Positions 13,572 through 45,515 of a stretch of 64,000 bases of DNA are shown here, in pieces (position 1 is the first letter of the stretch; each line of letters opens with the position of its first letter). The translations under genes were made by a program, and so were the position numbers. Origin of the DNA: Geobacteraceae bacterium (GTDB taxonomy: Bacteria > Desulfobacterota > Desulfuromonadia > Geobacterales > Geobacteraceae); contig WSYB01000018.1 of assembly GCA_009773645.1 (NCBI GenBank), positions 1 to 64,000 of the forward strand. The letters are read 5' to 3'. The notes beneath the pieces were generated by a model. That model ran no database searches and was not told the DNA's origin. It was given only the letters and a program-made list of their open reading frames with translations.

Positions 13572-14588
13572 ATGATACGAAAACAATTGCTCATTATCAC
13601 CCTGTCAGCACTTCTTGCCGTGGCCGGTCCCGTGGCTGCCATTGCTGCTCAGGTCGAACTGCTGAACGTCTCCTACGACCCGACCCGTGAGCTCTACCAG
13701 GATTTCAACGCCGCATTCGCCAAGCACTGGAAGAAAAAGGCCGGCGAAGATGTGGTCATCAAGCAATCTCACGGTGGTGCCGGCAAACAGGCGCGGGCCG
13801 TCATCGATGGCCTCGAGGCGGACGTGGTCACCCTGGCGCTCGCCTACGACATCGACGAGATTCACAGCAAGGCCGGCCTGATCCCTGAGAATTGGCAGAA
13901 GCGCCTACCCCACAACAGCTCCCCCTACACCTCCACCATCGTCTTCCTGGTCCGCAAGGGAAACCCCAAGAAAATCAAGGATTGGAACGACCTGGTGAAA
14001 CCCGATATCAAGGTGATCACACCGAACCCGAAGACCTCCGGCGGCGCCCGCTGGAATTATCTGGCGGCCTGGGCCTATGCCCTGAAGCAGAAGGGCGGAA
14101 ATGAAGCCAAGGCGAAGGAATTCGTTACTAAGCTCTTCAAGAACGTGCCGGTGCTTGACTCCGGAGCCCGGGGGTCAACAACCACCTTCGTCCAGAGGGG
14201 ATTGGGGGATGTGCTCCTCGCCTGGGAGAACGAGGCGTTCCTGGCCGTGAACGAGCTGGGGAAAGACAAGTTCGAGATCGTGGTGCCGTCGCTCTCCATC
14301 CTCGCCGAGCCGCCGGTCACCGTTATCGACAAGGTGGTGGACAAGCACCGTACCCGCAAGGTGGCCGAGGAGTACCTGAAATATCTCTACACCCCTGAAG
14401 GGCAGGAGATCGCCGCGAAGAATTACTACCGCCCGATCGACAAGAAGGTGGCGGCGAAGTACGCAAAGACCTTCACCAAGGTGAAGCTCATTACCATCGA
14501 CGACGTGTTCGGCGGCTGGCAGAAGGCCCAGAAGAAACACTTCGCCGATGGCGGGACCTTCGACCAGATCTACACGCCGAGCAAATAA
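13572..14588 (+). CDS. cysP: Sulfate/thiosulfate ABC transporter binding protein
   Basis: A 338-residue periplasmic binding protein. A signal peptide (about residues 1-26) is followed by [14 protein letters not shown], the signature of the CysP/Sbp family, then GGAGKQA and the GGARWNY segment, which help bind the oxyanion. It delivers sulfate or thiosulfate to CysTW. The start has a strong AGGAGG-like site. It heads the cysPTWA-yezD operon behind an Rrf2-type operator. Sbp and CysP cannot be separated by eye; the symbol marks the family. Confidence 0.9.
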
Positions 14589-27264: not shown

Positions 27265-27309
27265 TTGACAAATAAATTTATTATTGTTATTAATCTATTA
27301 AATTGATAG
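27265..27309 (+). promoter_or_regulatory. Promoter with Rrf2-type operator (operon E)
   Basis: -35 TTGACA (27265-27270), 17-base spacer, -10 TATTAA (27288-27293), then CTAT-N7-ATAG at 27295-27309, the most symmetrical copy of the motif. It drives a leader RNA and the third MFS gene. Confidence 0.75.
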
Positions 27310-27339: not shown

Positions 27340-27414
27340 CGGACTTTGGACTCGACAAGTCACGGCAGGCTGACCAGGCATCTGGAGGCCGAGGAAATAT
27401 CCTCGGCCTTTTTT
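27340..27414 (+). ncRNA. Cis-regulatory leader RNA, copy A, with terminator
   Basis: A conserved core (GGCTGACCAG at 27368-27377, then GCAT, then CTGGAGGCC to 27390) runs straight into an intrinsic terminator: GGCCGAGGA (27387-27395), loop AATA, TCCTCGGCC (27400-27408) and a U-tract. The core's GGCC is shared with the terminator stem, so ligand or protein binding to the core can compete with termination. Two further copies occur at 28764 and 33673. It sits about 30 bases downstream of the operator and 70 before the MFS start. It does not match riboswitch classes I can recall. Confidence 0.75.
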
Positions 27415-27484
27415 GTATTTAAAAAGCAATATTCGCCGATTGAAAAGGTGAAATACATAAAGCCGAGCCTTTAAAAGGGATTCA

Positions 27485-28690
27485 ATGTCCAGCTTCTTTG
27501 TTAAAAATAAGCTCATCCTGAGCTTCATCACCCTGAACATAACAAACGGGACTGCCGGTGGTTTGTTGCAGATCATCGTGCCGCTCTACGCCATGAGCCT
27601 CAATGCGACCACCGTACAGATCGGCATGATCCGTGGGGTTTCCGGGCTCGGGTTTCTGCTTCTCGTTATTCCGGCCGGATTTCTTGTGGGTCACTACGGG
27701 TCAAAGAGACTTTTTGTTTTGGGCAGCCTGGCGGTGACGTTTACCACCTTAGCCATGGTCTGGGCCAGGACTCCGCTGTTCTTGACGTATCTCATGGGGC
27801 TGCAGGGCTTTTTCCGTTCACTTCGCATTACGGCCATGAACTCTTCGTTCTTTCGCAATCTGAAGACTATGGGGCTGGAAAAGGCCGGCTGGTTCAAGGG
27901 GTCGATGTCCATCGGCTTCACCTTCATCGGCCCTCTGATGGCGGGGTACCTGGCCAAAGAGGCCAGCTTCCCCCTGATGTTTCAGATCGTGGTCATGGTC
28001 ACACTCCTCCCCACGCTCCTCATCTTCTTTTTCCACAAGGATGGGCACCGCTTGGACCGGAGTGGCGGTCTTCGGGAAATTATCTCGTTCCAGGTCGACG
28101 ATTTCAAGCTGCTGCTGCGGCGCAAAAACCTCTATCTTCCCCTCCTGGCCGAGAGTGTGGGAGCTGCCTTCAACTCGGCATTCAGCACATTCATCATAGT
28201 CATTGTCGTCCGCACCCTGAACTTGAAACCTATGTTTGCTTCCACGCTCCTGATCATCGAGGGGGCAGTCTACATCCTGACGGTTTTTTTCGCGGGAACG
28301 CTGATTTACCGGATGAAGGAGAATAATCTTTATCTCCTCGGTTTCGGCGTTACCTCCCTCGGAGCGATCATACTGGCCCTTGCCGAGAATCTTCCCATAA
28401 TTGCTCTGGCTACGGTCATCATCGGTTTCGGTCTGGGACTCCTCAACATGGTTACCTCTTCGCAGATGGGGGCCATGGAAGGGGACAAGGGGAAGATCGT
28501 CGGCCTGTTCGCCGCCTCCACCGGGGTGGGGATGAGCGTCGGTCCATTCATGGGCGGTTTTATCGGCCAGTACTTCGGCAACAGGTACATCTTCGCGTTT
28601 TTTGTGCCGATCTTTTTACTCACCGGCATCATGACGAAGATGCACGAGTCGAGAATGATGGAGGTGGGTGCAGACTCCAACGCCGCTTGA
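27485..28690 (+). CDS. MFS transporter, paralogue 3 of 3
   Basis: A 401-residue permease with about twelve membrane segments and the MFS loop motif GFLVGHYGSKRL (with G in place of D). It is most like the permease at 18754 (shared KAGWFKGSMSIG and TFIGPL runs). It is the first gene of an operon driven by the 27265 promoter and preceded by leader copy A. Leader copy B lies between this gene and the next, so output of the downstream reductase genes can be regulated separately from this permease. Confidence 0.88.
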   Translation: MSSFFVKNKLILSFITLNITNGTAGGLLQIIVPLYAMSLNATTVQIGMIRGVSGLGFLLLVIPAGFLVGHYGSKRLFVLGSLAVTFTTLAMVWARTPLFLTYLMGLQGFFRSLRITAMNSSFFRNLKTMGLEKAGWFKGSMSIGFTFIGPLMAGYLAKEASFPLMFQIVVMVTLLPTLLIFFFHKDGHRLDRSGGLREIISFQVDDFKLLLRRKNLYLPLLAESVGAAFNSAFSTFIIVIVVRTLNLKPMFASTLLIIEGAVYILTVFFAGTLIYRMKENNLYLLGFGVTSLGAIILALAENLPIIALATVIIGFGLGLLNMVTSSQMGAMEGDKGKIVGLFAASTGVGMSVGPFMGGFIGQYFGNRYIFAFFVPIFLLTGIMTKMHESRMMEVGADSNAA

Positions 28691-28734
28691 AAGCCTTTCG
28701 TCTGCAAGATCTCAAGCGAAACTAAGAAATGCAG

Positions 28735-28812
28735 GTTCGTGCGGCTCCTTCGGGGGCGCCGATGGGCTGACCAGACAACTGGAGGCTGAGGAGATATCCT
28801 CGGCCTTTTTTC
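28735..28812 (+). ncRNA. Cis-regulatory leader RNA, copy B, with terminator
   Basis: An upstream hairpin (GGCTCC-TTCG-GGGGCGCC-like, 28743-28760) is followed by GGGCTGACCAG (28764-28774), ACAA and CTGGAGGCT. The terminator is GGCTGAGGA (28784-28792), GATA, TCCTCGGCC (28797-28805) and a U-tract. No promoter or operator is visible nearby, so it is an internal attenuator between the MFS gene and the radical SAM gene. Confidence 0.75.
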
Positions 28813-28957
28813 TTTTCCGAAGGCGGGTGCCATCTTTGGGCACAACATGGATGAATGAAACAAAATAACGGCGCAGAAGTGTTTTACGCACATGTGCTCC
28901 ACTCTACCCCGGATGGTGTACTGAAGAATTCCGGGCAAATATTTTAAGGAGGAAGGA

Positions 28958-30253
28958 ATGGTACAGGCATTGAGAAAAGTATGTGAAACGGGGCCGGAAA
29001 CAGGGGGATGCAAGAAAGAGCTCTCGCGGCAAGGCCTCAAGGAGGCGCTGTACAAGGAACTGGAGCTGAAGATCGATCTGGCGGTTCAGGGGATAAGTTT
29101 CGCCCCTCCCGACCTGAAGCAGTTCCCCATCGGAACGACGTACCAGGAACAGATCCATATTCTCTTCGACATGGACAAGGAGCACCACGCCGACTTTCTC
29201 CTGCCGGCGGCCTTCTACCTCCCCCACGGCCTGCTGGTCGCTTTCCGCTGGGATTCCTCCTCCCCCTACCGCCTGGTGGCCGAGGGGGGGAAGCCGGTCA
29301 TCTACAAATACCGCTATGGCAAGGACCCGATCAGGATCGCCGAGGTCAAGTTCAAAAATCGGCCTGAGCTCCTGAGCCGCAAGACCGCGGAGGGCGAACC
29401 GTTCGGTCACATCGCCGCCTTCACTCCGGAAGGGGGGGTCTTCGTCAGCTACAGCAACGAGTGCTTCCTCAAGGAACGGGGGGAGGACTGCAAATTCTGC
29501 AACATCAACTCCACGGCAGGCGCCTACAAGGGGGACAACATCTTCCTCAAGACGCCGCAGCAGGTGGCAGAGGTCTTCAACGCCGCCTATCAGGCGGGTG
29601 TCGGCAACCAGTTGAACGTCACCGGCGGATTCATCCCGGAGCGGCGGGAGATCGAGTATTACGGCGACGTGGCGGACGAGGTGAGGGCACTGACCGGCCT
29701 CGACGACTTCAACGGCACCGCAGTCATCGGCGCACCGGTCGACTTCGGCGTCATCGACAAGTACAAGGAGGCGGGGTACCGCAACGTGGCGCTGAACGTC
29801 GAGATCTGGGACAAGAACATCTGGCAGGCCATCTGCCCGGGCAAAGCCCGGCACTGCGGCGGTTACGACAACTGGGTGGCGGCGCTGGAATACGCGGCCA
29901 AGGTCTTCGGCCGGGGGAAGGTGCGCTCCAACATCGTGGCGGGGCTGGAGCCGAAGCAGTCGATCCTGGAGGGTGTCGAGTACCTGGCCGACAAGGGGGT
30001 GATCAACTTCGTGGGCGCCTGGTGCCCCAACCCCGGCTCCGAACTGGAGCAGCACCGCACCCCGGAGACCGCGTGGCACGTTGATCTCTACCACAAGGTG
30101 GCGAATATTTTCCGGAGAAACGGCTTTACCCTCCGGGAACTCTACGATTGCGCCGCCGCCAACAGCCCGGTGCATGACATCTATCGCATCGAAGAGGAGC
30201 ATTTTGAAGGCAACCGGCTCAAAACCTGGAAGTTCCCCACATTACGGAAATAG
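28958..30253 (+). CDS. Radical SAM protein with CX8CX2C cluster motif (1)
   Basis: A 431-residue protein with C169-X8-C178-X2-C181, a variant of the radical-SAM CX3CX2C motif. Downstream are FNGTAVIGAPVDFGV and EIWDKNIWQAICPGK, matching a similar region of the radical SAM protein at 36410 (EVWDENLFKWICSGK). The pair are paralogues of an uncommon type. It is the first gene of the activase / dehydratase-like operon behind leader copy B; an AAGGAGGAAGG site precedes ATG 28958. It could build or install a cofactor, or perform radical chemistry on the imported substrate. Confidence 0.8.
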   Translation: MVQALRKVCETGPETGGCKKELSRQGLKEALYKELELKIDLAVQGISFAPPDLKQFPIGTTYQEQIHILFDMDKEHHADFLLPAAFYLPHGLLVAFRWDSSSPYRLVAEGGKPVIYKYRYGKDPIRIAEVKFKNRPELLSRKTAEGEPFGHIAAFTPEGGVFVSYSNECFLKERGEDCKFCNINSTAGAYKGDNIFLKTPQQVAEVFNAAYQAGVGNQLNVTGGFIPERREIEYYGDVADEVRALTGLDDFNGTAVIGAPVDFGVIDKYKEAGYRNVALNVEIWDKNIWQAICPGKARHCGGYDNWVAALEYAAKVFGRGKVRSNIVAGLEPKQSILEGVEYLADKGVINFVGAWCPNPGSELEQHRTPETAWHVDLYHKVANIFRRNGFTLRELYDCAAANSPVHDIYRIEEEHFEGNRLKTWKFPTLRK

Positions 30254-30265
30254 GAGGCGAAAACA

Positions 30266-31150
30266 ATGAACGACAAATTTCTCGGGCTGGATATCGGTTC
30301 ACGGACGGCAAAAGGCGTTCTCCTGGTTGGGGACACGATCCATACCGCCATTCGGCCGACCGGATTTCACATGCAGGAAACGGGCGATGCCCTCGTGAAA
30401 GAGCTTCTGCTCAAAGCGGGGATCAGGAAGTCTGATATCACCCATATCGTCGGCACCGGCTACGGCCGCATCACGCTCGATTTTGACGGCATCCCTTACG
30501 GGGATGTCACCGAAATATCGTGCCACGCCAAGGGAGCCCACTATCTCCACCCCAACACCCGCACCATCGTGGATATCGGCGGGCAGGACAGCAAGGCGAT
30601 CAGAGTTGACCCCAGGAACGGCAAGGTGGTGGATTTCGTCCTCAATGACAAGTGTGCCGCCGGTACCGGCAAGTTTCTGGAGATGATTGCCACTTCAATC
30701 GGCCTGACGGTTGAGGAACTGGGCGAAGTCGCCCTGAAGGCGGAGCGGCCGGCGAGGGTGACGAGCCAATGCGTGGTCTTTGCCGAGTCGGAGGTGATCT
30801 CACTGAAGGCTCAGGATGTGAGCCAGGCAGACATTGCGGCCGGAGTTCATCTGTCGGTGGCAAGAAGGGTGGGGAATCTCCTCAGCCGGGTTGGGATCGA
30901 GTCGGATGTCGTGTTCACGGGCGGCGTATCGAAAAACAAAGGGATGCGCCGAGCCCTGGAGGAGGTTACCAAGGCCAACTTTGTCGATCTGCGTCTCGAC
31001 GCCCAGTATGCCGGGGCACTAGGGGCAGCCGTCTATGCCCGTGAGCATGCTGCCTCGAACACGGTCAAGCACGAATCCCGTCTCAAGGATCGTGACCTCT
31101 TCGCTTCCCTGCGCGAGGAACTTGGAAGGGTAAGGGAGGCGGCGGCATGA
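30266..31150 (+). CDS. ATP-dependent activase, BadF/BadG/HgdC (ASKHA) family
   Basis: A 294-residue ASKHA ATPase. It shows the phosphate-binding GLDIGSRTAKG at the N-terminus, GGQDSKAI (about 105-112) and NDKCAAGTGKFLE; C130 and C169 occupy the positions that hold the bridging [4Fe-4S] cluster in HgdC-type activases. Such proteins inject very-low-potential electrons into 2-hydroxyacyl-CoA dehydratases, benzoyl-CoA reductases or double-cubane proteins. The two genes immediately following encode such partners. The start lies 12 bases after the radical SAM stop. Confidence 0.9.
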   Translation: MNDKFLGLDIGSRTAKGVLLVGDTIHTAIRPTGFHMQETGDALVKELLLKAGIRKSDITHIVGTGYGRITLDFDGIPYGDVTEISCHAKGAHYLHPNTRTIVDIGGQDSKAIRVDPRNGKVVDFVLNDKCAAGTGKFLEMIATSIGLTVEELGEVALKAERPARVTSQCVVFAESEVISLKAQDVSQADIAAGVHLSVARRVGNLLSRVGIESDVVFTGGVSKNKGMRRALEEVTKANFVDLRLDAQYAGALGAAVYAREHAASNTVKHESRLKDRDLFASLREELGRVREAAA

Positions 31151-32256
31151 CCGAACAGAACAAGGAAGCCGGCACACAAAAAAGGGCCGGCTACTTTTGC
31201 ATCTACACACCCATTGAGGTGATCGCCGCTGCCGGGGCAACGCCGATAAGGCTCTTCAAGGGGGGTGACAGCATCGTGGTGAACAGCGGTGAGGTCTATA
31301 CGCGCAGCTACTTCTGTCAATTCGCCCAATACAGCGTGGGTGCGTTCCGCGAGGATGACCCCCTCTACCGCTCGATCGACAAGATCTACCATTTCAATAC
31401 CTGTGACCAGATGAAAAAAGGGGTCGAAGCGATCGGTGAATTCTTCGATGTTCCCTACAAGATGCTCTGTCTGCCGCGGGAGAGGAACCGTGACGCATCC
31501 CGGCAGTTTATGCAGCGGGAGGTGGAGTTCTTCCGCAAAGACGTGGAGGAACTGACGGGGAATCCCGTGACTGACGAGGGTTTGCGGGAGCAGATACGCA
31601 AGTACAACCAGGCGCGGCAGTGGGTGAAGAGGCTGTCGGAGCTCCGCAAGCAGGATGTCCCGCCACTGACGGGGGGCGAATTCCTCGATATCGTCAAGGC
31701 ATTCTACTATCTCCCGGTCGAGACGAGCCTCAAATATTTCGAGGAGTTCTACAGCCACATTGCGGCGGAGAAGGCAAGCGGGGAGCGCCCCATCAGACTC
31801 ATGATTTCCGGAGGGATCATCGCCGACGGAGACCGCCGTCTGATCGACCTGATCGAAAAGGAGCTGGGGGCGAGGATCGTGGTCGAAGATCACTGCACCG
31901 GGCTGCGCCCCTTCTACTACCCGATTCCCGAAGATAAGCCTCCGCTGCAGGCCCTCTCCGACGGCTACCTCGATACCGCTCCCTGCGCCAGGATGAAGCC
32001 CCTCGAGGAGCGGCTCGATTTCAGTCAGAAGCTGGCCGATGAATACCGGATCGACGCCATCATTTACGTGAGCCTCAAATTCTGCAGCTGCTATTCCATC
32101 AGCAAAAACAGCTTCACGAAGCGTTTTCACGGGCTTGAAATCCCCGTGCTCGACATCTCAGCCGACTATTCGGAAAATGACCTGGGCCAGTTGAGGACCA
32201 GGATCGGGGCATTTTTCGAGCTGATCAGGAAAGGAGACAGCCATGCCGCTGCATAA
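31147..32256 (+). CDS. 2-hydroxyacyl-CoA dehydratase / double-cubane-type subunit (1)
   Basis: A 369-residue protein of the HgdB/BcrC/double-cubane family: GYFCIYTPIEVIAAAGATP at the N-terminus is the family start, and the cysteines in SYFCQFAQYS, FNTCDQMKK and LKFCSCYS lie in the usual cluster-binding regions. It overlaps the activase stop by four bases and the following subunit by 14. In the absence of CoA-ligase or CoA-transferase genes, its substrate need not be a CoA ester; double-cubane proteins reduce small molecules. Substrate unknown. Confidence 0.83.
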   Translation: MTEQNKEAGTQKRAGYFCIYTPIEVIAAAGATPIRLFKGGDSIVVNSGEVYTRSYFCQFAQYSVGAFREDDPLYRSIDKIYHFNTCDQMKKGVEAIGEFFDVPYKMLCLPRERNRDASRQFMQREVEFFRKDVEELTGNPVTDEGLREQIRKYNQARQWVKRLSELRKQDVPPLTGGEFLDIVKAFYYLPVETSLKYFEEFYSHIAAEKASGERPIRLMISGGIIADGDRRLIDLIEKELGARIVVEDHCTGLRPFYYPIPEDKPPLQALSDGYLDTAPCARMKPLEERLDFSQKLADEYRIDAIIYVSLKFCSCYSISKNSFTKRFHGLEIPVLDISADYSENDLGQLRTRIGAFFELIRKGDSHAAA

Positions 32257-33457
32257 GGAAAAAAGCCGGTTAGACGTACCGCTTAATCAGCGCGACTATC
32301 TCAAGAGTCATCCGAAATCGCCCACCATCAACCGGGTGTTTGAGCTGTCCCTGACCTATATCCAGCGGGCGGACGAGGCCCACAAGAGAGGGCAGAAGGT
32401 TTACTACGGCGGCGGTGTCTACGATTCCCCCATTCTCCACGCCAATGACGCCTTCCCGTGCGTCTACAACGAACTCGGACGCCTGGCCGGGGACGATTCG
32501 GTGGCGCTTGCCGAAGAGCACTTCCAGATACCCAATGAAACCTGTTCCATGGTAAAGGCCACCATGGGGGAGCTGTTGCGCCGGAAGAATTCCTTCAAAG
32601 GGCTGATCGCCTACTGTTCCCTCTGCGAGCCGTACAACACCGCTTTCGAGGTACTGAAGGAAGAGGGGTACGACGTCTATTCCGTTGACCTTCCCTACCG
32701 GGCCGCCGGGGTCAACGATGCCCGCTTTGAAAGCCTGGTCGACTTCTCCGAAAAGGAGCTGACGGGGCTGGCCGAATGGATAGGGGGTGGCCGCGTCGAT
32801 GAGGAAAGGCTGGCCGAGGAGATCCGGCGGACCAACCTCATTCATGCAAAAGTGCGGCGGTTGCTCGATCTCCAGGTTGCCAACCCCGACTACATCGGGA
32901 CACTTGAAACGATGTTTATCTGGAACGGCGCCAACCACCACTACGGTGCGCCCGAGGAGTACGAGGATATCCTCGATCAGCTCATTGCCGAACTGGAGGA
33001 GGTCTCTGCCATTGAGAGAAAGATCGACCGGGTGCCGATTGTCTGGTGCGGCGGCCGCGGTCAGGAGTTCGGCATCTACAAGCTGCTGGATGACCTCGGG
33101 GGGTATATTTCCAAGTGGACCATGGCCGGCCGTCTTCTCCGCGACTATGATGAAAGCCTCCCCCCTCTGCGAGCGATTGCGTACAACAACGTGCTCGGCA
33201 TGGGCGGCCCCGGCGGCGCCAAGGACCAGATACCCTTCCTGGAGCAGAGCCTCGAAGATACCAAGTCCAGGGGGATCATCTTCTACGGCTACTTCGGCTG
33301 TTCGTTCACCTCGGTCAACTTCGAGGTGATAAAAAATCATTTCGCGCACAAAGGAACCCCTTCCCTGGTTCTTGACGGCTCCTTCCAGATCGGCGATCCG
33401 AGCGGCCAGAACGTGACACGTTTGAAGGCTTTTATGGAGATGGTTACCAATGGCTGA
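32243..33457 (+). CDS. 2-hydroxyacyl-CoA dehydratase / double-cubane-type subunit (2)
   Basis: A 404-residue relative of the previous subunit: KVYYGGGVYDSPILHANDA at about residue 52, cysteines in NETCSMVK, AYCSLCEPYN and YFGCSFTS at the family positions. With subunit 1 it would form a heterodimer receiving electrons from the activase. It is the last gene before the next regulated promoter at 33505. It has no signal peptide, so the reaction is cytoplasmic. Confidence 0.83.
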   Translation: MPLHKEKSRLDVPLNQRDYLKSHPKSPTINRVFELSLTYIQRADEAHKRGQKVYYGGGVYDSPILHANDAFPCVYNELGRLAGDDSVALAEEHFQIPNETCSMVKATMGELLRRKNSFKGLIAYCSLCEPYNTAFEVLKEEGYDVYSVDLPYRAAGVNDARFESLVDFSEKELTGLAEWIGGGRVDEERLAEEIRRTNLIHAKVRRLLDLQVANPDYIGTLETMFIWNGANHHYGAPEEYEDILDQLIAELEEVSAIERKIDRVPIVWCGGRGQEFGIYKLLDDLGGYISKWTMAGRLLRDYDESLPPLRAIAYNNVLGMGGPGGAKDQIPFLEQSLEDTKSRGIIFYGYFGCSFTSVNFEVIKNHFAHKGTPSLVLDGSFQIGDPSGQNVTRLKAFMEMVTNG

Positions 33458-33504
33458 ACTTGATAGATATGATGTGGAATTGTAATGATTATTTAAATGT
33501 ATTG

Positions 33505-33549
33505 TTGACAAGATATTTTTTTACAACTATTATTCTATTAAATAGATAG
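33505..33549 (+). promoter_or_regulatory. Promoter with Rrf2-type operator (operon F)
   Basis: -35 TTGACA (33505-33510), 17-base spacer, -10 TATTAT (33528-33533), then CTAT-N7-ATAG at 33535-33549. It is the strongest promoter match in the locus and drives leader copy C and the porin-to-NifK operon. Confidence 0.75.
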
Positions 33550-33639
33550 ACTTCATAGTTAATAATTTGTTCAGCGGGCAGGCTGGTGGGGGTGATGTAT
33601 AAAGCAGGGCGCCACCGGCTTTTAAGTAGCTGAAAAGTA

Positions 33640-33721
33640 CAGGAGCGTAACGGCATCCGGCGGATGTCGGGTAGGCTGACCAGACAACTGGAGGCCAGGG
33701 ACAATGTCCCTGGCTTTTTTT
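33640..33721 (+). ncRNA. Cis-regulatory leader RNA, copy C, with terminator
   Basis: An upstream hairpin (GCATCC-GGC-GGATG) is followed by AGGCTGACCAG (33673-33683), ACAA and CTGGAGGCC. Then a terminator with stem GCCAGGGACA / TGTCCCTGGC (33694-33714) and U-tract. Stem bases differ from copies A and B while pairing is kept, and the core is nearly identical: covariation supports a true terminator. A partial echo of the core, CCAGTCAACTGGAG, occurs at 33801, close to the porin start. Confidence 0.77.
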
Positions 33722-33839
33722 GTTCCCTGCTCCGGGTGAGTTCCCCACCGTTGGGAGAAAAAGGAAACTGTTGAACGAATGAACACAAACTTTCCTTGCC
33801 AGTCAACTGGAGATGAAAGACTTTAAGGAGGAGAAAACA

Positions 33840-35207
33840 ATGAGGGTTTTTAATGTGGCAAGGTGGATGGTACTCACCCTTTTACTGCTGGCTCCCGCTG
33901 CATGGGGGGCCGAAGGGGAAGTGGTCGAGACAAAGAGTGCGGAGCAGACGGTGCTCGAAGGAGCCAAGGTGGGTGGAGATGAAACCAAGGTCGCCGTTGA
34001 TGAAGACGGCGAAGACGCTCCTCCGAAAGAAGAACCGGTTACGCAGGAAGATATCAAGGGGGTAAGGAGCGAGATCGAAACCCTGCGCGATCAGTGGAGG
34101 AGGACCCTGGACAAGAATACAGCGCAGACGAAGCGGTCGCTCCAGATCGGCGGAACCGTGCAGACCAGATACACCTACTCCGAGGATCCCGCCATCAACG
34201 ACGGCTTCAGCGTCAATTCGATCATCCTGTCGTTCCAGGGAAGTCTGCGGAAGGACTATGAGGAAGGGAAGAACGTCAACTACCAGTTCAGTCTGTCTAC
34301 CAATTCGGACTTTACCATCAGGCCCCTGCAAGCCAGTCTCAGCTACTCAATCCTTCCCTCTCTCGATCTCGAGAAGCCCTATCTGACCGCCACGGTCGGC
34401 CAGCAGAAGAAACCGATCAGTCTCGAATCGCTGGCGACGGAGGAGTTCAAGCCGACGATCCGCGGTGCACAGTTCGCCAGCGCCCTGAAGCTCGATGAGC
34501 GCGACATCGGCGCCGTCATCAGTGGCGACCTCTTCCCCCACGTGGACTACGGGTACAAGTACCGGGTTCCTTTAATCACTTATTCCTTAGGAGTATTCAA
34601 CGGCGCCGGCCCCAACAAGGCAGATGACAACAACGACAAGGACGTGGCCGGGAGGGTCGTCCTGAACGCCCCCGTTGACTACAACGATATTTTACGGGGC
34701 CTATCCCTCGGAGGCTCGTTCTACATCGGGAGGAAGAACGCCGAGTTCAAGAATGGAACCAACTCGGTTACCCGCCAGGGCACTAAAAACAGATGGGGTG
34801 CGGATTTGTCCTATGTGAACACCCCGATCGGATTCACCCTCGAATATGTCCAGGGGGAAGACGCCGCCCCGAACGGGACGGTGGCTAATCCCGCCCTGAA
34901 GGTTGTCAGGAGCGAAGGGTATACCTTTACCCTCTTCTACAACTTCGGCGAGCAGTTCGTGAGTGGCTTCAAAAGCCAGGACCGTTACGACGACTGGTAT
35001 CCACTGACCTACCAGCCGTTCATCAGGTTCGACCGGTTCGACCCCGACGTGAAGAAAGCGGGCGACCGGACCGATATCTGGACCATCGGCTTCAACTGGT
35101 TCTTCGCCGAGACGACGAAACTACAGCTGAACTACAACATCAAGACCGGAGAGACGACATCAAAACAGGTGAATGAATTCCTGACCCAATTCCAGTTCGG
35201 TTTTTAG
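33840..35207 (+). CDS. Outer-membrane porin, OprO/OprP-like
   Basis: About 455 residues from ATG 33840 (after AAGGAGGAG). A signal peptide (about 1-21) is followed by an acidic stretch, a short coiled coil (DIKGVRSEIETLRDQWRRTL, about residues 70-90), then a barrel-like alternating sequence ending in QFQFGF, with a terminal Phe as in outer-membrane proteins. It resembles phosphate-selective porins O and P. It is the first gene of the operon containing the SsuA-like transporter and would admit the imported substrate through the outer membrane. Confidence 0.82.
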   Translation: MRVFNVARWMVLTLLLLAPAAWGAEGEVVETKSAEQTVLEGAKVGGDETKVAVDEDGEDAPPKEEPVTQEDIKGVRSEIETLRDQWRRTLDKNTAQTKRSLQIGGTVQTRYTYSEDPAINDGFSVNSIILSFQGSLRKDYEEGKNVNYQFSLSTNSDFTIRPLQASLSYSILPSLDLEKPYLTATVGQQKKPISLESLATEEFKPTIRGAQFASALKLDERDIGAVISGDLFPHVDYGYKYRVPLITYSLGVFNGAGPNKADDNNDKDVAGRVVLNAPVDYNDILRGLSLGGSFYIGRKNAEFKNGTNSVTRQGTKNRWGADLSYVNTPIGFTLEYVQGEDAAPNGTVANPALKVVRSEGYTFTLFYNFGEQFVSGFKSQDRYDDWYPLTYQPFIRFDRFDPDVKKAGDRTDIWTIGFNWFFAETTKLQLNYNIKTGETTSKQVNEFLTQFQFGF

Positions 35208-35276: not shown

Positions 35277-36365
35277 ATGAAAAGGCTTGTGAGCAGTCTA
35301 CTGGCAGCGGTTTTACTGGTGGGTGTGGCGGGGAGTGGAACCCTCTTTGCCCAGGAGAATAACCCCAGGGTTATCCGGATCGGGAGCGCCTACGGCGGCG
35401 GGTACGGCAAACCCTATTCAACGGGGACCATCGGCATCGTCCATGCACGGGGGCTCCTGGAGAAGGAGTTCGAGAAGGACGGCATCAAGATCGATTGGTA
35501 CTTTTTCAAGGGGGCCGGCCCCGCCACCAATGAAGCGATTGCCAACAATACCCTCGATTTTGCCTACGAGGGGGATTTCCCCAGCATCGTCGGCAAGGCG
35601 GGGGGGTTGAAGACCAGGATCATAGCCGCCGGCTCCGTTCGCACCGACGTCTTCATCCTCGTCCCCAACGACTCCCAAATTAAATCCATCAAGGATCTGA
35701 AGGGGAGAAAGGTCGGGATTTTCAAGGGAATCAACTCCAACCTCACATTCAGCAGGCTCCTGGAGGCCAACGGTCTGGTCGAGAAGGACCTCCGTCTCTA
35801 CAACTTCGGCACGGCCGAGATCGAAGCGGCCCTTGCCTCCAAGGATATCGAGGCGGGGGTCGGGGGCTTAAGGACGCGCGACCTGGGGCTCACCAAGGTT
35901 CTCTTCTCGACCACCCCGGCCATAAAGGCAATCGACCCGCAGAAGGTGCCCGATGACTGGAAGACCGCCGGGCAGCTCCTGGTCATCGACGACTTCGCCA
36001 AGAAGTACCCCGACATCGTCAAGCGGGTGGTGAAGGTCTACGTGGAAGCGGCCAAGTGGGGGTCGGAGGATAAGAACCGCTCGGAGCTCTTCAAGCTCTG
36101 GTCCCAGAACGGGACCCCCTATAGTCTCCTTAAGGAGCAGTACGGAGGGAAGTCGGGCAAGCACATCACTACCCCGCTCCTGGACGAATTCTTCGTCAAC
36201 CATTACAGGAACGGGGTGGCATACTCGAAGGAAAACAAGTACATCAGGAAACCCTTTGACGTCGATCAATGGATCGACAGGAGCTACCTCGACGCGGCGC
36301 TCAAGGAGCTGAAGCTGGAGAAATACTGGCCCCAGTACGACGCCCAGGGGAAAAAGAAGAAGTAG
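35277..36365 (+). CDS. Aliphatic sulfonate / taurine-type ABC binding protein
   Basis: A 362-residue SsuA/TauA/NrtA-family periplasmic protein with an N-terminal signal (to about residue 25). Motifs include VIRIGSAYGGG, GLLEKEF, ATNEAIANNTLDFAYEGDFPS and a GRKVGIFKGINSN segment. It delivers a small anionic substrate to the permeases SsuC-like 1 and 2. The operon context (porin, reductases) suggests an organosulfur ligand, but the family also includes nitrate and pyrimidine binders, so the ligand is uncertain. Confidence 0.88.
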   Translation: MKRLVSSLLAAVLLVGVAGSGTLFAQENNPRVIRIGSAYGGGYGKPYSTGTIGIVHARGLLEKEFEKDGIKIDWYFFKGAGPATNEAIANNTLDFAYEGDFPSIVGKAGGLKTRIIAAGSVRTDVFILVPNDSQIKSIKDLKGRKVGIFKGINSNLTFSRLLEANGLVEKDLRLYNFGTAEIEAALASKDIEAGVGGLRTRDLGLTKVLFSTTPAIKAIDPQKVPDDWKTAGQLLVIDDFAKKYPDIVKRVVKVYVEAAKWGSEDKNRSELFKLWSQNGTPYSLLKEQYGGKSGKHITTPLLDEFFVNHYRNGVAYSKENKYIRKPFDVDQWIDRSYLDAALKELKLEKYWPQYDAQGKKKK

Positions 36366-36409: not shown

Positions 36410-37654
36410 ATGAGCAACCATGAATCAGGGCTGGAAGAACTTGCGGACAGATATCCCGATGTGCCGCGCTTCATCATACTGAAACTCGACGCGCAAAGGC
36501 GGGGGATCAAGCTGACGGAAAACGCTTTCAACGCGGTCCAGGAGCCGTTATACCGCTACGGCAGGTACAGCGGCGTCAAGGGGGAGGAGACCTCCAAGGG
36601 AGTATATCCGGGACCGCTCATCCTGAGGGACGGGACGACCGTCCTGACTTCGGCAGCGGCCGCCAGCCAGTTCGAGAACCCCTATACCATAGATCATGTC
36701 GAAGGGAAGTTCTACATCCACGACAACGGCAGGCGGATCGACGAGGTGGACTTCACCCCGCGACCGGACTACTACGGCAAGAAGACCAGTCGCGGCGTCC
36801 CCATGGAATCCATCGCCAGCGCCAGACCGCAGAGGATCGACATCCAACCTTACCGCTACTGCCATTTCTGGGACACGCAGGATCAGTGCAAGTTTTGCTC
36901 GTTCTTCACCGACCTGGAAGAACAGCGGCAGCTCTCGGACGAAAAGTTTCCCAGGGCGCTCAATGTGGAGGACATCTATGAGACCGTGCGCGAGGCGCTG
37001 AAAGAGCCCGGGAGGATCTCCCAGATAAACCTGACCGCCGGCGCCGACTACAGCGGCGCTGTTCCCTTCGACAATGAGGTGAACCGTTATATCGAGGTTC
37101 TCCAGGCGATCGGGAGAAATTTTTCCGGAAGGTTTCCCAGCCAGCTCCTTGCCCCGGCCTACACCAAGAAGCAGGTCAAGAGACTTTATGACGAAACCGG
37201 CCTCTCCTCCTACTGTCCGGACATCGAGGTGTGGGACGAGAATCTCTTCAAATGGATATGCAGCGGCAAAGATAAAGTGGTGGGGAGAAACGAGTGGGTA
37301 AAGAGGACCATCGATGCCGTGGAGATTTTCGGCAAGGGGAACGTCTATACCAACTTCGTCGCCGGGGTGGAAACGGCGCAGCCCCATGGATTCAAGACCA
37401 TCGACGAGGCATTGAAGTCCAGTTTCGAGGGATGCGAATTCTTCGCCAAGCATGGGGTGGTTTACCTGAGCCTTGTCTGGAGACCGTGGAAGAGCTCCGT
37501 CTTTGCCGGGCAGAAGCAGCCCCCCCTGGAGTACTATGTGCGGCTGGTGAAGGGGCTGCGCGAGATACGGAGAGCCTACGGCTTGACCTCGGACAACGAC
37601 GATTATAAGCATTGCGGCAATCACGGCGACAGCGACTTGGAGAGAATAGACTGA
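36410..37654 (+). CDS. Radical SAM protein with CX8CX2C cluster motif (2)
   Basis: A 414-residue paralogue of the radical SAM protein at 28958: C151-X8-C160-X2-C163, the later EVWDENLFKWICSGK and GKGNVYTNFVAGVE segments align with it. It lies between the binding protein and flavoprotein genes. Two such enzymes in one regulon imply two related radical steps, possibly on the substrate or on the cofactors of the two reductases. Start ATG 36410. Confidence 0.8.
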   Translation: MSNHESGLEELADRYPDVPRFIILKLDAQRRGIKLTENAFNAVQEPLYRYGRYSGVKGEETSKGVYPGPLILRDGTTVLTSAAAASQFENPYTIDHVEGKFYIHDNGRRIDEVDFTPRPDYYGKKTSRGVPMESIASARPQRIDIQPYRYCHFWDTQDQCKFCSFFTDLEEQRQLSDEKFPRALNVEDIYETVREALKEPGRISQINLTAGADYSGAVPFDNEVNRYIEVLQAIGRNFSGRFPSQLLAPAYTKKQVKRLYDETGLSSYCPDIEVWDENLFKWICSGKDKVVGRNEWVKRTIDAVEIFGKGNVYTNFVAGVETAQPHGFKTIDEALKSSFEGCEFFAKHGVVYLSLVWRPWKSSVFAGQKQPPLEYYVRLVKGLREIRRAYGLTSDNDDYKHCGNHGDSDLERID

Positions 37655-38764: not shown

Positions 38765-39391
38765 ATGGCAAAGATAGTCGGTTTGTCGGGGAGCCCGCGC
38801 CCGGAAGGGAATACGGATATCCTCGTCAAGGAAGCGTTGAAAGCAGCGGCTGCACTGGGACTGGAGACGGAGTTTGTCACCCTGGCGGGGAAAGACATCC
38901 AACCCTGTCGTGCCTGCTATGGCTGCCGTGAGGAAGGGGCGCAGGGCAAATGCGCGATCGATGATGACCTCCCGGCGATCTTCGAACGGTTAAAGGGAGC
39001 GGACGGGATCATCATCGGCAGCCCGGTCTACTTCCTTTCCGTCACCGCCCAGTTGAAGGCGCTTTTCGACCGGGGGCTGGTCCTGCGCTACGGCAAAGGA
39101 AGGGTGAAGAGTCGCCCGGGTGTTCGGGGCGGCCCCGAGTTTCTGTTGACGGGGAAGGTCGGCGGGGCTATTGCCGTGGCCGGCAGTAACGGGCAGCAGT
39201 TGACCAGCCTGGATATCCTCAAGTGGATGATCTTCCAGAACATGCTCGTGGTGGGGAACGGTGTGGATGTGGGGACCAATGTCAGCGCCAGAGGAAAAGG
39301 GGAGGTGCTCAAGGACAAAACCGCCCTCTTCCATGCCCGTTCCACCGGTGTAAGGGTTGCAGAAACCGTCAAGGCGTTGCAGAGGCAGTGA
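38765..39391 (+). CDS. Iron-sulfur flavoprotein (Isf-like)
   Basis: A 208-residue flavodoxin-fold protein: GLSGSPRPEGNTDIL binds FMN phosphate, and C48-X2-C51-X2-C54-X8-C63 resembles the compact [4Fe-4S] motif of methanogen/acetogen Isf proteins. A GSPVYFLSVTAQLKALFDR segment is typical of NADPH-dependent FMN reductases. It can split electron pairs to single electrons and could feed the NifH-like or activase proteins. Confidence 0.86.
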   Translation: MAKIVGLSGSPRPEGNTDILVKEALKAAAALGLETEFVTLAGKDIQPCRACYGCREEGAQGKCAIDDDLPAIFERLKGADGIIIGSPVYFLSVTAQLKALFDRGLVLRYGKGRVKSRPGVRGGPEFLLTGKVGGAIAVAGSNGQQLTSLDILKWMIFQNMLVVGNGVDVGTNVSARGKGEVLKDKTALFHARSTGVRVAETVKALQRQ

Positions 39392-39438
39392 TCAACCGTT
39401 TTTGCGGGGGAAAATCGAATTGTCAGGAGGAGCTTCCC

Positions 39439-40377
39439 ATGAATGTACCGGAAGTCAAAATACGAGTGAACTATAACGAAGGCAAGGTGGAACCGCTTAA
39501 GGAGGTCATCGAGGCGTCTCCTTCCAACTCACTCGGCAATGCAGCCGTGCTTGGATGGAGAATTCTCCTCGACTCGTTTAACATTTTTCCCGGACCGCTT
39601 CCGGGGATTGTTCTCAGGCTGGGAGACAAGGCTCTCGGGTTGATCGTACCGCTGCTGCTCTTTCTCGCCTGGGATCTGGTAACCAGGTATGAGTTGACCC
39701 CCCCTCAATTGCTCCCCTTGCCGAAACAGGTAGCCGTCACGTTCCTGGACATGGTGCGCAGCGGAGAGCTCTTGGTCAATCTGAAGATCAGCCTGTTAAG
39801 AGTCACCGCAGGGTTTTTCGCCGGGAGCTTCACGGGGCTGGTGCTGGGAACCGCCATGGGGTTGTCGAAGAAGATCGAGAGCTATGTCGGGCCCCTTTTC
39901 CACTCCATCCGACAGGTGCCGTTACTGGGATGGATACCCCTGCTGATCCTCTGGCTCGGTATGGGAGAGACCTTCAAGGTTTTTTTCATAGCCATCGGCG
40001 CCTTTTATGCCATGACGCTCAATACCTTCCAGGGGATCAGGGATGTGCCCGGTGAGTACCTGGAGGTGGCACGGGTTTTTGAATACAATCGGCTGCAGCT
40101 TTTTCGGAAGATAGTTTTTCCGGCAGCACTCCCCTCCATCCTCACCGGAGTGAGGATAGGTCTGAGTCTGTCGTGGTTTCTCCTCGTCGGAGCTGAGTTC
40201 ACGGGTGCCAGCGAGGGGATCGGCTACAGTATCGCCTGGGCGCGGCAGATATTCCAGACAGACGTCGTGATCGCCGGGGTCTTCGTCATCGGTGTCATCG
40301 GCCTTCTCATGGACCGGGTAGTGACGCTGCTCGAAGGGTATCTGCTGCGCTGGCGGAGAAAGACCTTCACTGCCTGA
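39439..40377 (+). CDS. Sulfonate-type ABC permease 1 (SsuC-like)
   Basis: About 312 residues from ATG 39439 (after CAGGAGG). A 60-residue hydrophilic N-terminal extension precedes six membrane segments; the permease loop EYLEVARVFEYNRLQLFRKI is at about 208-227. The extension is unusual for SsuC. It pairs with the next permease, forming a heteromeric channel. Upstream in-frame codons overlap the flavoprotein gene and are not needed. Confidence 0.87.
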   Translation: MNVPEVKIRVNYNEGKVEPLKEVIEASPSNSLGNAAVLGWRILLDSFNIFPGPLPGIVLRLGDKALGLIVPLLLFLAWDLVTRYELTPPQLLPLPKQVAVTFLDMVRSGELLVNLKISLLRVTAGFFAGSFTGLVLGTAMGLSKKIESYVGPLFHSIRQVPLLGWIPLLILWLGMGETFKVFFIAIGAFYAMTLNTFQGIRDVPGEYLEVARVFEYNRLQLFRKIVFPAALPSILTGVRIGLSLSWFLLVGAEFTGASEGIGYSIAWARQIFQTDVVIAGVFVIGVIGLLMDRVVTLLEGYLLRWRRKTFTA

Positions 40378-40402
40378 ATACAAAATCGAAGAGGTGTGAG
40401 AG

Positions 40403-41188
40403 ATGAGCACAAAGGCAATTTCATTAACGCAACTGCAGGAAAAGGTCAGGACGATCACCCTTCCCCTGATCGTCCTCCTCGTCTGGTGGGTGGTGTCCCA
40501 TCGGGAGATCGTGTCGCCCCATTTTCTCCCCAGGCCGGAGACGGTGGTCGGTGCTTTCTTTACCCTGGTCGAGGAAGGCATCCTGTCTTTTAACCTGAAG
40601 ATGAGCTTCACAAGGGTGATCAGCGGGTTCCTCCTGGGAATATCCTTTGGCCTCGTGCTGGGAATAGCCATGGGGCTCTCCCGGACCGTGGAAAAACTGC
40701 TGCGGCCGTTGTTCGATGCCGTCCGGCAGGTTCCCATGCTGGGGTTCATACCGCTCATCATCCTCTGGTGCGGCGTGAACGAAACCTCCAAGGTGGTGTT
40801 CATCGCCATCGGCGCCTATTACTCAGTTGTCCTCAACACATTCGAAGGGATCAGGAGCGTTAAGAAAGAGTATCTCGAGGTGGCACAGGTGTTTGAATTC
40901 GGCAGGTTCAACCTTCTTAGGAAGTTTGTACTGCCGGCGGCCCTGCCGTCCATCCTTACCGGACTGAGGCTGGGCCTGAGCAAGTCGTGGATGCTGGTGG
41001 TGGGAGCCGAGCTTTTCACCGCCACCAAGGGGGGGATCGGCAGCATGATGGCCGAAGGACGGGAGCAGTGGCGGATGGAAATCGTGTTTGTCGGCATCAT
41101 CATCGTCGGCCTGGTGGGTTTTGTCCTCGACCAGCTGCTCAAGGTGCTGGAAGGGCGGCTGCTGCGGTGGCGAAAGGCCATCGACTAG
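40403..41188 (+). CDS. Sulfonate-type ABC permease 2 (SsuC-like)
   Basis: A 261-residue permease, closely similar to permease 1 in the loop EYLEVAQVFEFGRFNLLRKF but without the N-terminal extension. SsuABC systems usually use a homodimer; two adjacent, non-identical copies with one binding protein and one ATPase suggest a heterodimer. Start ATG 40403 lies 23 bases after the previous stop. Confidence 0.88.
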   Translation: MSTKAISLTQLQEKVRTITLPLIVLLVWWVVSHREIVSPHFLPRPETVVGAFFTLVEEGILSFNLKMSFTRVISGFLLGISFGLVLGIAMGLSRTVEKLLRPLFDAVRQVPMLGFIPLIILWCGVNETSKVVFIAIGAYYSVVLNTFEGIRSVKKEYLEVAQVFEFGRFNLLRKFVLPAALPSILTGLRLGLSKSWMLVVGAELFTATKGGIGSMMAEGREQWRMEIVFVGIIIVGLVGFVLDQLLKVLEGRLLRWRKAID

Positions 41189-41264
41189 TGTCCTTCCGGA
41201 AACTCGGGTGGGCACCGGTTATGTTTCCGATTCGGAAACCAACTAAGAATAAAGGGGGCGTAGT

Positions 41265-42047
41265 ATGGGTGAATCGGGAGCCTTGCAGCTGTCGAATCTG
41301 AATAAGAAGTTTACGGTGGAGGGGGAGAAGATTTCTATCATCGAGAATGTCAATCTCACCGTTTCCCCGGGGGAGTTCATCAGTATCATCGGCCCGAGCG
41401 GCTGTGGCAAGACCACGTTGCTCCGGATGATCATCGGACTGGAATCTGATTACGAAGGGGACATCATCCTGGCCGGGAAAAAATTGAATGGCCCCAGTCT
41501 CAATCGCGGGGTGGTCTTTCAGGACCATCGCCTGCTCCCCTGGCTTACCATCGAAAAAAATGTCGGCTTGGGACTGGAAGGGAAAAAGTATGCCCGGAAC
41601 CGTAAGCAGATCATCCAGGATCATCTCGAGCTGGTGGGGCTGAGGGGTTTTGAGAAGGCATACCCCTACCAGTTGTCGGGGGGGATGGCCCAACGGGCGT
41701 CCATAGCCCGCGCCCTTGTGAACAGGCCGGAGATACTCCTCCTCGATGAACCTCTCGGTGCTTTGGACGCCCTGACCCGCATGTATATGCAGCAGGAGCT
41801 GGAAAAGATCTGGCAGCAGGAGGGGGGGATCACCATGATCATGGTCACCCACGATGTGGAAGAGGCGATTTACCTCTCCGACAAGGTGGTTATCATGTCG
41901 AACCGTCCGGGAAAGCTCAAGAAGACCATACCGGTTCCCCTTGCCCGCCCGCGGGACCGGGCGAGTTACGATTTCATCAAGATAAAGGAGGAGGTTTTGC
42001 GGGAATTCCATCTCCAGGCCGAGCACCAGTTCAGCTATGCCATCTGA
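41265..42047 (+). CDS. Sulfonate-type ABC ATPase (SsuB/TauB-like)
   Basis: A 260-residue ATPase with Walker A GPSGCGKTT, Q-loop VVFQDHRLLPW, signature LSGGMAQRASIARAL and Walker B ILLLDEPLGALD, typical of the SsuB/TauB/NrtC group. It powers uptake by the permease pair. A 76-base gap separates it from permease 2; GGGGGCG precedes ATG 41265. Confidence 0.9.
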   Translation: MGESGALQLSNLNKKFTVEGEKISIIENVNLTVSPGEFISIIGPSGCGKTTLLRMIIGLESDYEGDIILAGKKLNGPSLNRGVVFQDHRLLPWLTIEKNVGLGLEGKKYARNRKQIIQDHLELVGLRGFEKAYPYQLSGGMAQRASIARALVNRPEILLLDEPLGALDALTRMYMQQELEKIWQQEGGITMIMVTHDVEEAIYLSDKVVIMSNRPGKLKKTIPVPLARPRDRASYDFIKIKEEVLREFHLQAEHQFSYAI

Positions 42048-43196: not shown

Positions 43197-44072
43197 ATGA
43201 CGGAAAAAAGATCCAAACACATAGCCATCTACGGTAAAGGGGGGATCGGGAAGTCCACCACTACCTCCAACATCGCCGCCGCCCTGGCTGAGGCCGGCTA
43301 CCGCGTGATCCAGATCGGCTGCGATCCCAAGAGCGATTCCACGACCATCCTGCGCGGCGGCAACGAACTGCCGACGGTCCTCGACACCCTGCGGGAGCAC
43401 AGCAAGATAAAGATTGAAGACATCTCCGCGGTCGGCTTCAAAGGGGTCCTCTGCATCGAAGCAGGGGGGCCGGTCCCCGGGGTGGGGTGCGCCGGCCGGG
43501 GGATCAACGCGGCGGTGGGGCTCCTCCAGGACCTCCACCTCTTCGAAGAGTACAAGGCCGACTATGTCCTGTACGACGTGCTCGGGGATGTGGTTTGCGG
43601 CGGGTTTGCCGTGCCGATCCGGGACGGGATCGCCGAGCGAGCCTATGTGGTATCCTCCTCCGATTTCATGGCCATCTATGCGGCGAACAATCTCTTCAAG
43701 GCAATATCCAAGTATGCGCCTTCCGGCGGTGCCCGCCTCGGGGGGGTGATCGCCAACGGCCTGACTGCACCCTATGCGGAATCGCTCGTTGACGACTTTG
43801 TCGGGAGGACCGGCACAAAAGTCATAGGGTACGTGCCGCGCTCCCTCGTGGTCTCCCAGAGTGAGCTCTACGGCCAGACCGTCATCGAGGCATCTCCCGG
43901 TTCGAGTCATGCCGACATCTACCGGGGACTGGCCAGGCATCTCGTCGAACACGAGGAAACGACCATACCCGCTCCCTTGAACGGTCGGGAGTTGAAGGCG
44001 TGGGCCAGGGAATGGGGGGACCGGATTTTCGAAGTGGAGGCGGGGGTCATCGGTGAGCGGGCAGCCATATAA
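43197..44072 (+). CDS. NifH-like reductase component, canonical P-loop
   Basis: A 291-residue FeS protein. GKGGIGKST (13-21) is a complete deviant Walker A; GCDPKSDST, C98 (GVGCAGRG, with the Arg that is ADP-ribosylated in NifH) and C134 (VVCGG) are all present. It would deliver electrons with ATP hydrolysis to the adjacent D/K-like proteins. It resembles the NifH-like protein at 17887, which has lost the P-loop lysine. The gene begins 63 bases after the aldo-keto reductase stop and is followed by the D-like gene after 20 bases. Confidence 0.93.
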   Translation: MTEKRSKHIAIYGKGGIGKSTTTSNIAAALAEAGYRVIQIGCDPKSDSTTILRGGNELPTVLDTLREHSKIKIEDISAVGFKGVLCIEAGGPVPGVGCAGRGINAAVGLLQDLHLFEEYKADYVLYDVLGDVVCGGFAVPIRDGIAERAYVVSSSDFMAIYAANNLFKAISKYAPSGGARLGGVIANGLTAPYAESLVDDFVGRTGTKVIGYVPRSLVVSQSELYGQTVIEASPGSSHADIYRGLARHLVEHEETTIPAPLNGRELKAWAREWGDRIFEVEAGVIGERAAI

Positions 44073-44092
44073 AAGGTGAAAGGAAAGCAAGT

Positions 44093-45514: not shown

Positions 45515-45515
45515 G

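Follow-up and report, generated by a model that had tools for sequence, protein, structure and literature searches.

A conserved hairpin overlapping intrinsic terminators is the probable antitermination leader of a sulfur-starvation regulon in Geobacteraceae and other bacteria

In a 64,000-nucleotide stretch from a Geobacteraceae bacterium (GCA_009773645.1, contig WSYB01000018.1, positions 1 to 64,000; the whole stretch is hereafter the window), we analyzed a short RNA element that is present in three copies, each fused to an intrinsic terminator, and that is probably the leader of a sulfur-starvation regulon acting by transcription antitermination. Its core is conserved, its two helices (P0 and P1) covary, P0 and the terminator exclude each other, the folding energy favors termination, and the element recurs before sulfur genes. 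We infer that a factor binds the hairpin in response to low sulfur and that this binding switches the downstream gene ON. To our knowledge, the control of sulfur assimilation and salvage (involving sulfate, sulfonates, and genes resembling nitrogenase-like thioether reductases) is poorly described in relatives of Geobacter, in Moorella and Heliophilum, and in numerous uncultured bacteria. With up to 16 sites in a genome, the element outlines a candidate regulon, hints at genes that may act together (for example, the window's HGD-D pair and its radical SAM genes), and provides a testable leader for identifying the ligand or protein.

The core, GGCTGACCAGNNNNCTGGAGGC, was found exactly at three positions of the window, all on the + strand (Table 1), against 0.09 expected, and none of 100 shuffles contained three; elsewhere in the window there was no match, even allowing up to 3 mismatches. 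A preliminary description had reported three near-identical cores whose ends begin terminator stems that differ in sequence and still pair, and this was borne out: a terminator directly abuts each core, and the three stems keep their pairing with different sequences. That description had missed a pairing between core bases 2 to 4 (GCT) and the last three (GGC). Copy 2 was confirmed as internal, with no sigma-70-like + strand site found between the permease gene and this copy. Among the 78 contigs of the source genome, the only exact core matches are those three, and a covariance model recovered a fourth copy (C43:69658-69726), located 5.7 kb past the window end and before metK. The genome holds four copies at an E value of ≤1e-8, all on one contig.

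As seen in 192 distinct copies (128 + 37 + 27, identical matched sequences being counted once), the core is a single 22-nucleotide (nt) hairpin in which a conserved GA/A internal loop separates the 3-bp lower helix P0 from the 4-bp P1, with a short A-rich loop at the top; we number it N1 R2 Y3 Y4 N5 A6, P1 (7-10), loop, P1' (28-31), A32, G33 R34 Y35. Among 129 copies, position 6 is A in 128, position 32 is A in 129, and position 5 is G in 121; the loop ranges from 4 to 7 nt, with 4 nt in 101 copies and 6 nt in 6. The first three P1 pairs vary in the 128 distinct rows (CG 116/UA 12; CG 120/UG 5/UA 3; AU 104/GC 20/GU 2/UA 1) and the fourth is invariant (GC 123), giving arm versions such as CCAG/CUGG, CCGG/CCGG, UCAG/CUGA, and CUAG/CUAG, among others. 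In P0, all 128 distinct rows of alignment A6 are paired at positions 2-35 (GC 117/AU 8/GU 3) and 3-34 (CG 120/UG 8), and Y4-G33 is a U-G wobble in 119 of them. The same two pairs are formed in 95 and 96 of the 96 scored rows of alignment A3, and in 40 and 42 of the 43 rows of alignment A8, 37 of whose sites are absent from A6. Among 204 sequences, an A at position 2 is accompanied by U at 35 in 13 of 15 cases (the other two being C and G), and an A at position 34 by U at 3 in all five. The covariation score was reached by 0 of 500 shuffles, both for P0 and P1 jointly and for P0 alone, and the joint count of double-change pairs by 32 of 500. The covariation of P0 was not built in, since P0 is not a helix of covariance model R1 or R2; both models still favor the common letters at its positions.

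The terminator stem and loop vary freely, in contrast to the constant core and the fixed spacing between core and terminator. The different hairpins that had been noted upstream of the three copies were rejected as part of the element, because 48 copies showed no conserved upstream column (no base above 50% in any of 30 columns). A near-palindromic core (CCAG-N4-CTGG) and Rrf2-like genes in the loci of 11 of 58 genomes might suggest a DNA site of a sulfur regulator next to an incidental terminator. We consider this very improbable, given that the loop length varies, that covariation of the arms follows RNA pairing rules (G-U among the pairs), and that the spacing between core and terminator is fixed; nor would a DNA site require the covariation of G33, R34, and Y35 (GGY) with position 2 and the terminator.

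The GGY bases, which form the 3' strand of P0, double as the foot of the terminator; of 96 scored rows, 94, 96, and 96 show them paired with its 3' strand. P0 and the terminator are therefore mutually exclusive, and both covary; exclusive, covarying helices with bases common to the terminator are what defines a terminator/antiterminator leader. The conserved part is thus an antiterminator hairpin, which provides a direct switch mechanism. In minimum-energy folds, GGY lies in the terminator in 188 of the 192 distinct copies, in P0 in 3, and elsewhere in 1, and enforcing P0 and P1 costs a median of 6.5 kcal/mol (quartiles 5.3 and 7.5; above 2 in 185 of 192). Since the terminator is energetically favored, the default would be termination unless something holds the hairpin. 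The unpaired G5 and A6 are conserved within the P0/P1 internal loop, outside the terminator, which argues that the hairpin is the bound state and the element an ON switch. In the proposed mechanism, the terminator would form in unbound leader RNA and transcription would stop; under sulfur shortage, a factor signaling it would bind the P0-internal loop-P1 hairpin and fix P0. The last three terminator pairs would then be blocked, and the polymerase could read through into the sulfur gene. The initial proposal, that an RNA associated with sulfur genes is sensed or bound and so controls termination, is supported by the computational tests that it suggested.

The reverse arrangement, in which the hairpin forms by default and the terminator-side conformation is bound by a repressing ligand (cysteine, S-adenosylmethionine [SAM], or sulfide), is an unlikely one. 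P0/P1 does form first cotranscriptionally, and sulfur end products are the usual repressors; an OFF switch would nonetheless leave G5 and A6 conserved without a partner in the terminator conformation, and the ligand-free terminator already wins by the median energy given above. Attenuation by a leader peptide, with the UGA in GCUGA as the stop codon of a short peptide rich in sulfur amino acids, is scarcely credible. The UGA is present there in 163 of 190 copies, directly preceded by a UGC codon in 36, and it is missing in 27. Upstream open reading frames (ORFs) of 6 to 30 codons that start with ATG and end at this UGA occur in 13 of the 190 copies, compared with 12 and 18 for the two remaining frames, and a Shine-Dalgarno sequence accompanies two in each frame. 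A leader peptide was therefore rejected for ATG starts (GTG and TTG starts were untested), as no conserved translatable upstream ORF was found.

Next, the distribution of the element was assessed with covariance models R1, built from 23 loci, and R2, built from 129 hits; their E values are rough, owing to a short calibration, and phylum names are those of the record titles. The search, which the preliminary description had suggested, extended the element across the window's order and into other phyla. At an E value of ≤1e-8, R2 matched 73 of 138 genomes of the order (58 of the 103 rated good quality), each carrying as many as 15 copies (hits not inspected singly). It also matched 23 of 249 genomes of the phylum of Kurthia, Bacillota (the centre genome and three already known among them). 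For the phyla of a Chloroflexi record (Chloroflexota) and an Actinomycetes record (Actinomycetota), the corresponding figures were 3 of 151 and 5 of 149, each including the centre genome. Outside the order, inspection of loci confirmed the core in 27 hits in 23 loci and in 10 further loci, and nine genomes of the window's wider phylum carried it on inspection; the exact core with a terminator was also found in Nitrospirota and Auribacterota records (L145 and L146). The element is present in at least four bacterial phyla. At an E value of ≤1e-5, 29 of the genomes behind 30 loci matched, with 16 copies in Heliophilum fasciatum, 9 in the Bacillota assembly UBA8347, 6 in Kurthia massiliensis, and 4 each in Moorella thermoacetica and Pseudobutyrivibrio xylanivorans. 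Coarser scans were less specific. A first pattern scan matched 103 of 141 order genomes, with many near-exact copies mixed with many chance matches, and an exact-core scan across phyla matched at least 118 stretches, with 80 loci among the matches listed and several evident chance matches that had no terminator. The R1 count of 122 of 395 genomes was rejected as a distribution because its weak hits were mostly core-less terminators: among 14 loci with R1 hits of about 25 to 41 bits, 12 were ordinary GGCC-type terminators lacking the core, and the remaining two had the core and no terminator. L077, which scored 40.9, also lacks the core.

In 76 of 92 cases of a first set and in 33 of 43 of alignment A8, no more than 150 nt separate the matched leader from the start of the first downstream ORF. 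Because gene calling followed a simple longest-ORF rule, some starts and small ORFs are wrong. In the first set, 71 ORFs from the window's order and phylum, the families were cysK (7), SsuA family (6), metK (5), NifB-like (5), B12-binding (3), ABC ATPase (3), and serine acetyltransferase, NlpA, and rhodanese (2 each), with a sulfite-reductase-like protein once and with methyltransferases and HlyD, MMPL, and MFS proteins as well. These 71 were drawn from 82 ORFs; the 11 omitted by hand were near-duplicates and short or doubtful ORFs, together with three of 347 to 796 amino acids and one Rrf2-like. A second set, mostly from other phyla with some Geobacteraceae records kept, comprised 104 of 105 listed ORFs, from which chance-looking exact-core loci and duplicates of earlier loci had previously been removed by hand; its 25 commonest families included ABC ATPase (9), NMT1 (8), radical SAM (6), nitrogenase-like (5), PAPS reductase (5), cysK type (4), ATP sulfurylase (3), and metK (3). 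N-terminal sequences read by eye place the element before cysH and a sulfate-binding protein in Kurthia, before ATP sulfurylase and a sulfonate-type permease in Moorella, and before APS kinase in Heliophilum. A less biased Bacillota sample (Pfam scan of 20 of 25 downstream ORFs) contained 4 clear sulfur enzymes (cysK twice, sat, and metK), 8 fitting proteins (two permeases, two ABC ATPases, nitrogenase-like, radical SAM, B12-binding, and ThiF), and 2 that were unclear. As a control, 11 core-less hits were taken and 8 ORFs scanned, two small ORFs and one hit without an ORF being omitted. None of the 8 was a sulfur-assimilation gene and 4 had no family at all; one aminotransferase also matched a Cys/Met PLP family below the cut-off. 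Sulfur genes thus recur downstream of the element.

Several points weigh against the proposed sulfur-starvation antitermination leader. Recognizably sulfur-related families make up at best about half of the 71 ORFs of the first set, and 6 of the 20 in the Bacillota sample have no evident sulfur link. For P0 alone, 52 of 500 shuffles attained the double-change count of its two pairs. Some of the conservation of the core outside the order is a selection artefact, as the first cross-phylum scan required the exact core. Disruption of three terminator pairs would plausibly, though not certainly, stop termination. The few copies that have no terminator indicate that termination is not the sole use of the core. 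Finally, beyond the loop only three unpaired core positions are strongly conserved (G5, A6, and A32), which is few for a small-molecule aptamer.

Regarding what would bind the hairpin, a metabolite has close to an even chance, with a starvation signal resembling O-acetylserine as the first candidate, and is favored by the patchy distribution among phyla, which is more readily explained by a self-contained RNA. In its fullest form, this reading is more tentative: a widespread new riboswitch class whose entire aptamer is the hairpin of about 21 nt and which, on sensing a metabolite of sulfur starvation (O-acetylserine or a related compound), would turn a global sulfur regulon ON in several phyla. 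If true, it would be among the smallest natural aptamers. An RNA-binding protein is also a serious candidate, if a somewhat less probable one than a metabolite; here, a sulfur-responsive protein, acting like LicT or SacY on RAT or like PyrR, would bind P0/P1 and block termination, and the RNA itself would sense nothing. The scarcity of conserved unpaired bases suits and favors a protein site, and one hairpin with an asymmetric internal loop is of the size and shape usual for such sites. Against such a partner, CAT_RBD (PF03123) was present in 0 of 6 order genomes and in 5 of 18 motif-bearing genomes overall, being absent from 13, and ANTAR proteins were present in 13 of 18 and absent from 5, including both Kurthia genomes; therefore, both were rejected as the common partner. 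No RNA-binding protein was seen in the top 60 families, judged by eye on N-terminal sequences, of 3700 ORFs from motif loci of 58 genomes; this is a weak test, as it covered parts of the genomes and included some spurious antisense ORFs. The families most common to these loci, named by eye, resemble sulfur enzymes, transporters, and the Rrf2 regulator, which may act on promoters. A factor of any other kind is improbable.

As for known elements, Rfam 15 gave no match in the window at gathering cut-offs and only cobalamin, SAM, and tRNA elements in 17 motif loci, none at the motif; when window copies 1 and 2 and L157 were scanned leniently, all matches fell far below gathering scores. The element thus matches no Rfam 15 family in the stretches scanned, in keeping with the first proposal that it belongs to no known class, and no description of it was found among the matches listed in searches of open-access full text (subscription papers, bioRxiv, and supplements lay outside this scope). 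Terminator/antiterminator leaders are a known kind; as far as seen, the class, regulon, and shape are new. Among the closest known designs is RAT, the antiterminator RNA of the LicT/SacY/BglG proteins. It too is a short hairpin with an asymmetric internal loop; the terminator's 5' strand overlaps the 3' part of the hairpin, and binding leads to read-through. Its sequence differs, it precedes sugar genes instead of sulfur genes, and its protein family is CAT_RBD, missing from most motif genomes as described above. ANTAR-type two-hairpin RNAs have hexanucleotide loops with A1 and G4, whereas the element mostly has a 4-nt loop. S-box (SAM-I) and other SAM and S-adenosylhomocysteine riboswitches likewise control a global sulfur/methionine regulon that includes metK; they gave no Rfam match on the motif, and the SAM-I riboswitch at locus L140 is a separate upstream element.

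The HMP-PP (thiS) riboswitch is likewise a compact leader, and its alternative fold disrupts the terminator stem close to the U run. Most of its aptamer is contained within the terminator, whose loop is conserved, and a pseudoknot is possible (PMC6478431); in contrast, the terminator stem and loop of our element vary, and the conserved part lies 5' of the terminator. Guanidine-IV and its Gd4v variant also have two hairpins, the second being the terminator, with a pseudoknot between them and an ON switch proposed for Gd4v (PMC9788692), whereas the terminator loops here vary and no such pseudoknot is apparent (no systematic search was made). The metXZ element of beta-proteobacteria is likewise an unassigned methionine leader with a terminator and antiterminator; as described, it differs in having six conserved regions, a possible pseudoknot, and a single copy per genome, before metX or metZ (PMC4239095). 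Five riboswitch candidates of Geobacter, among them the yjbM and nifV motifs, are reported in PMC11109978, and one of the other three might overlap the element.

Variations in arrangement were also observed. In L018, L022, L038, L043, L046, and L050, two copies are arranged in tandem ahead of a single gene, and a separate terminator-like stem follows each of them, an arrangement that resembles tandem riboswitches. Cores without a terminator were seen in L091, L092 (identical in sequence to L129), and L166, and are possibly a translational version. In L092/L129 and L166, 24 nt separate the end of the core from the ATG of an ORF whose start is signal-peptide-like and which is porin-like by eye, and in L091 the core lies just before a similar start. 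Among the 17 loci scanned, the element lies downstream of a cobalamin riboswitch, on the same strand and before secreted-looking proteins, in clostridial L116, L123, L157, L164, and L178; in Metabacillus L140, it follows a SAM-I riboswitch and precedes a cysH-like gene.

Table 1. Leader copies and neighboring features in the window
Feature	Positions	Strand	Basis or remark
Copy 1 core	27368-27389	+	Exact match; structure by analogy with 192 copies
Copy 1 pairing	P0 27369-27371/27387-27389; P1 27374-27377/27382-27385	+	Analogy with 192 copies
Copy 1 internal loop	27372-27373/27386	+	Analogy with 192 copies
Copy 1 intrinsic terminator	27384-27411	+	5' foot (GGC) common to P0
Copy 2 core, between MFS gene and radical SAM gene	28765-28786	+	Exact match; internal
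Copy 2 pairing	P0 28766-28768/28784-28786; P1 28771-28774/28779-28782	+	
Copy 2 intrinsic terminator	28781-28808	+	
Copy 3 core	33674-33695	+	Exact match
Copy 3 pairing	P0 33675-33677/33693-33695; P1 33680-33683/33688-33691	+	
Copy 3 intrinsic terminator	33690-33718	+	
Sigma-70-like promoter before copy 3 (TTGACA, 17, TATTAT; 11/12)	33505-33533	+	Consensus match only
TTGACA before copy 1	27265-27270	+	Read in the sequence; not called by the scan
MFS permease behind copy 1, 69 nt past matched leader end	27485-28690	+	PF07690
Radical SAM protein behind copy 2	28958-30253	+	NF045502
BcrAD/BadFG ATPase after the copy 2 radical SAM gene	30266-31150	+	
Two HGD-D genes after the BcrAD/BadFG ATPase	31147-32256, 32243-33457	+	Double-cubane model match below cut-off
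Porin O/P-like gene behind copy 3	33813-35207	+	
SsuA-like binding protein after the porin-like gene	35277-36365	+	Below the model's cut-off
Second radical SAM protein, copy 3 cluster	36410-37654	+	NF045502
Nitroreductase, FMN reductase, then sulfonate-type permeases and ATPase, copy 3 cluster	39223-42047 (permeases and ATPase)		

The gene content of the window (tabulated without the last 3 of 97 rows) is rich in sulfur-salvage types, namely, SsuA-/SaoP-like transport, FMN reductase, nitroreductase, a NifH-like protein, and two proteins like nitrogenase component 1. The last three are encoded at 43197-46868, within the sulfur cluster, and are possibly a system of the methylthio-alkane-reductase type, such systems being nitrogenase-like (PMC12552129). 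The BcrAD-type ATPase and the two HGD-D proteins (30266-33457) would be an uncharacterized reductase, placed in the sulfur regulon by the copy 2 leader. An Rrf2-like regulator gene (13053-13514) adjoins a gene for a sulfate-binding-protein-like product (13572-14588), the two being identified by eye. Upstream of copies 1 and 3 are AT-rich palindromes of the type TCTATTAAATAGATAGA, possible DNA sites of this regulator. In locus L053, a leader copy precedes an Rrf2-like gene (9339-9797).

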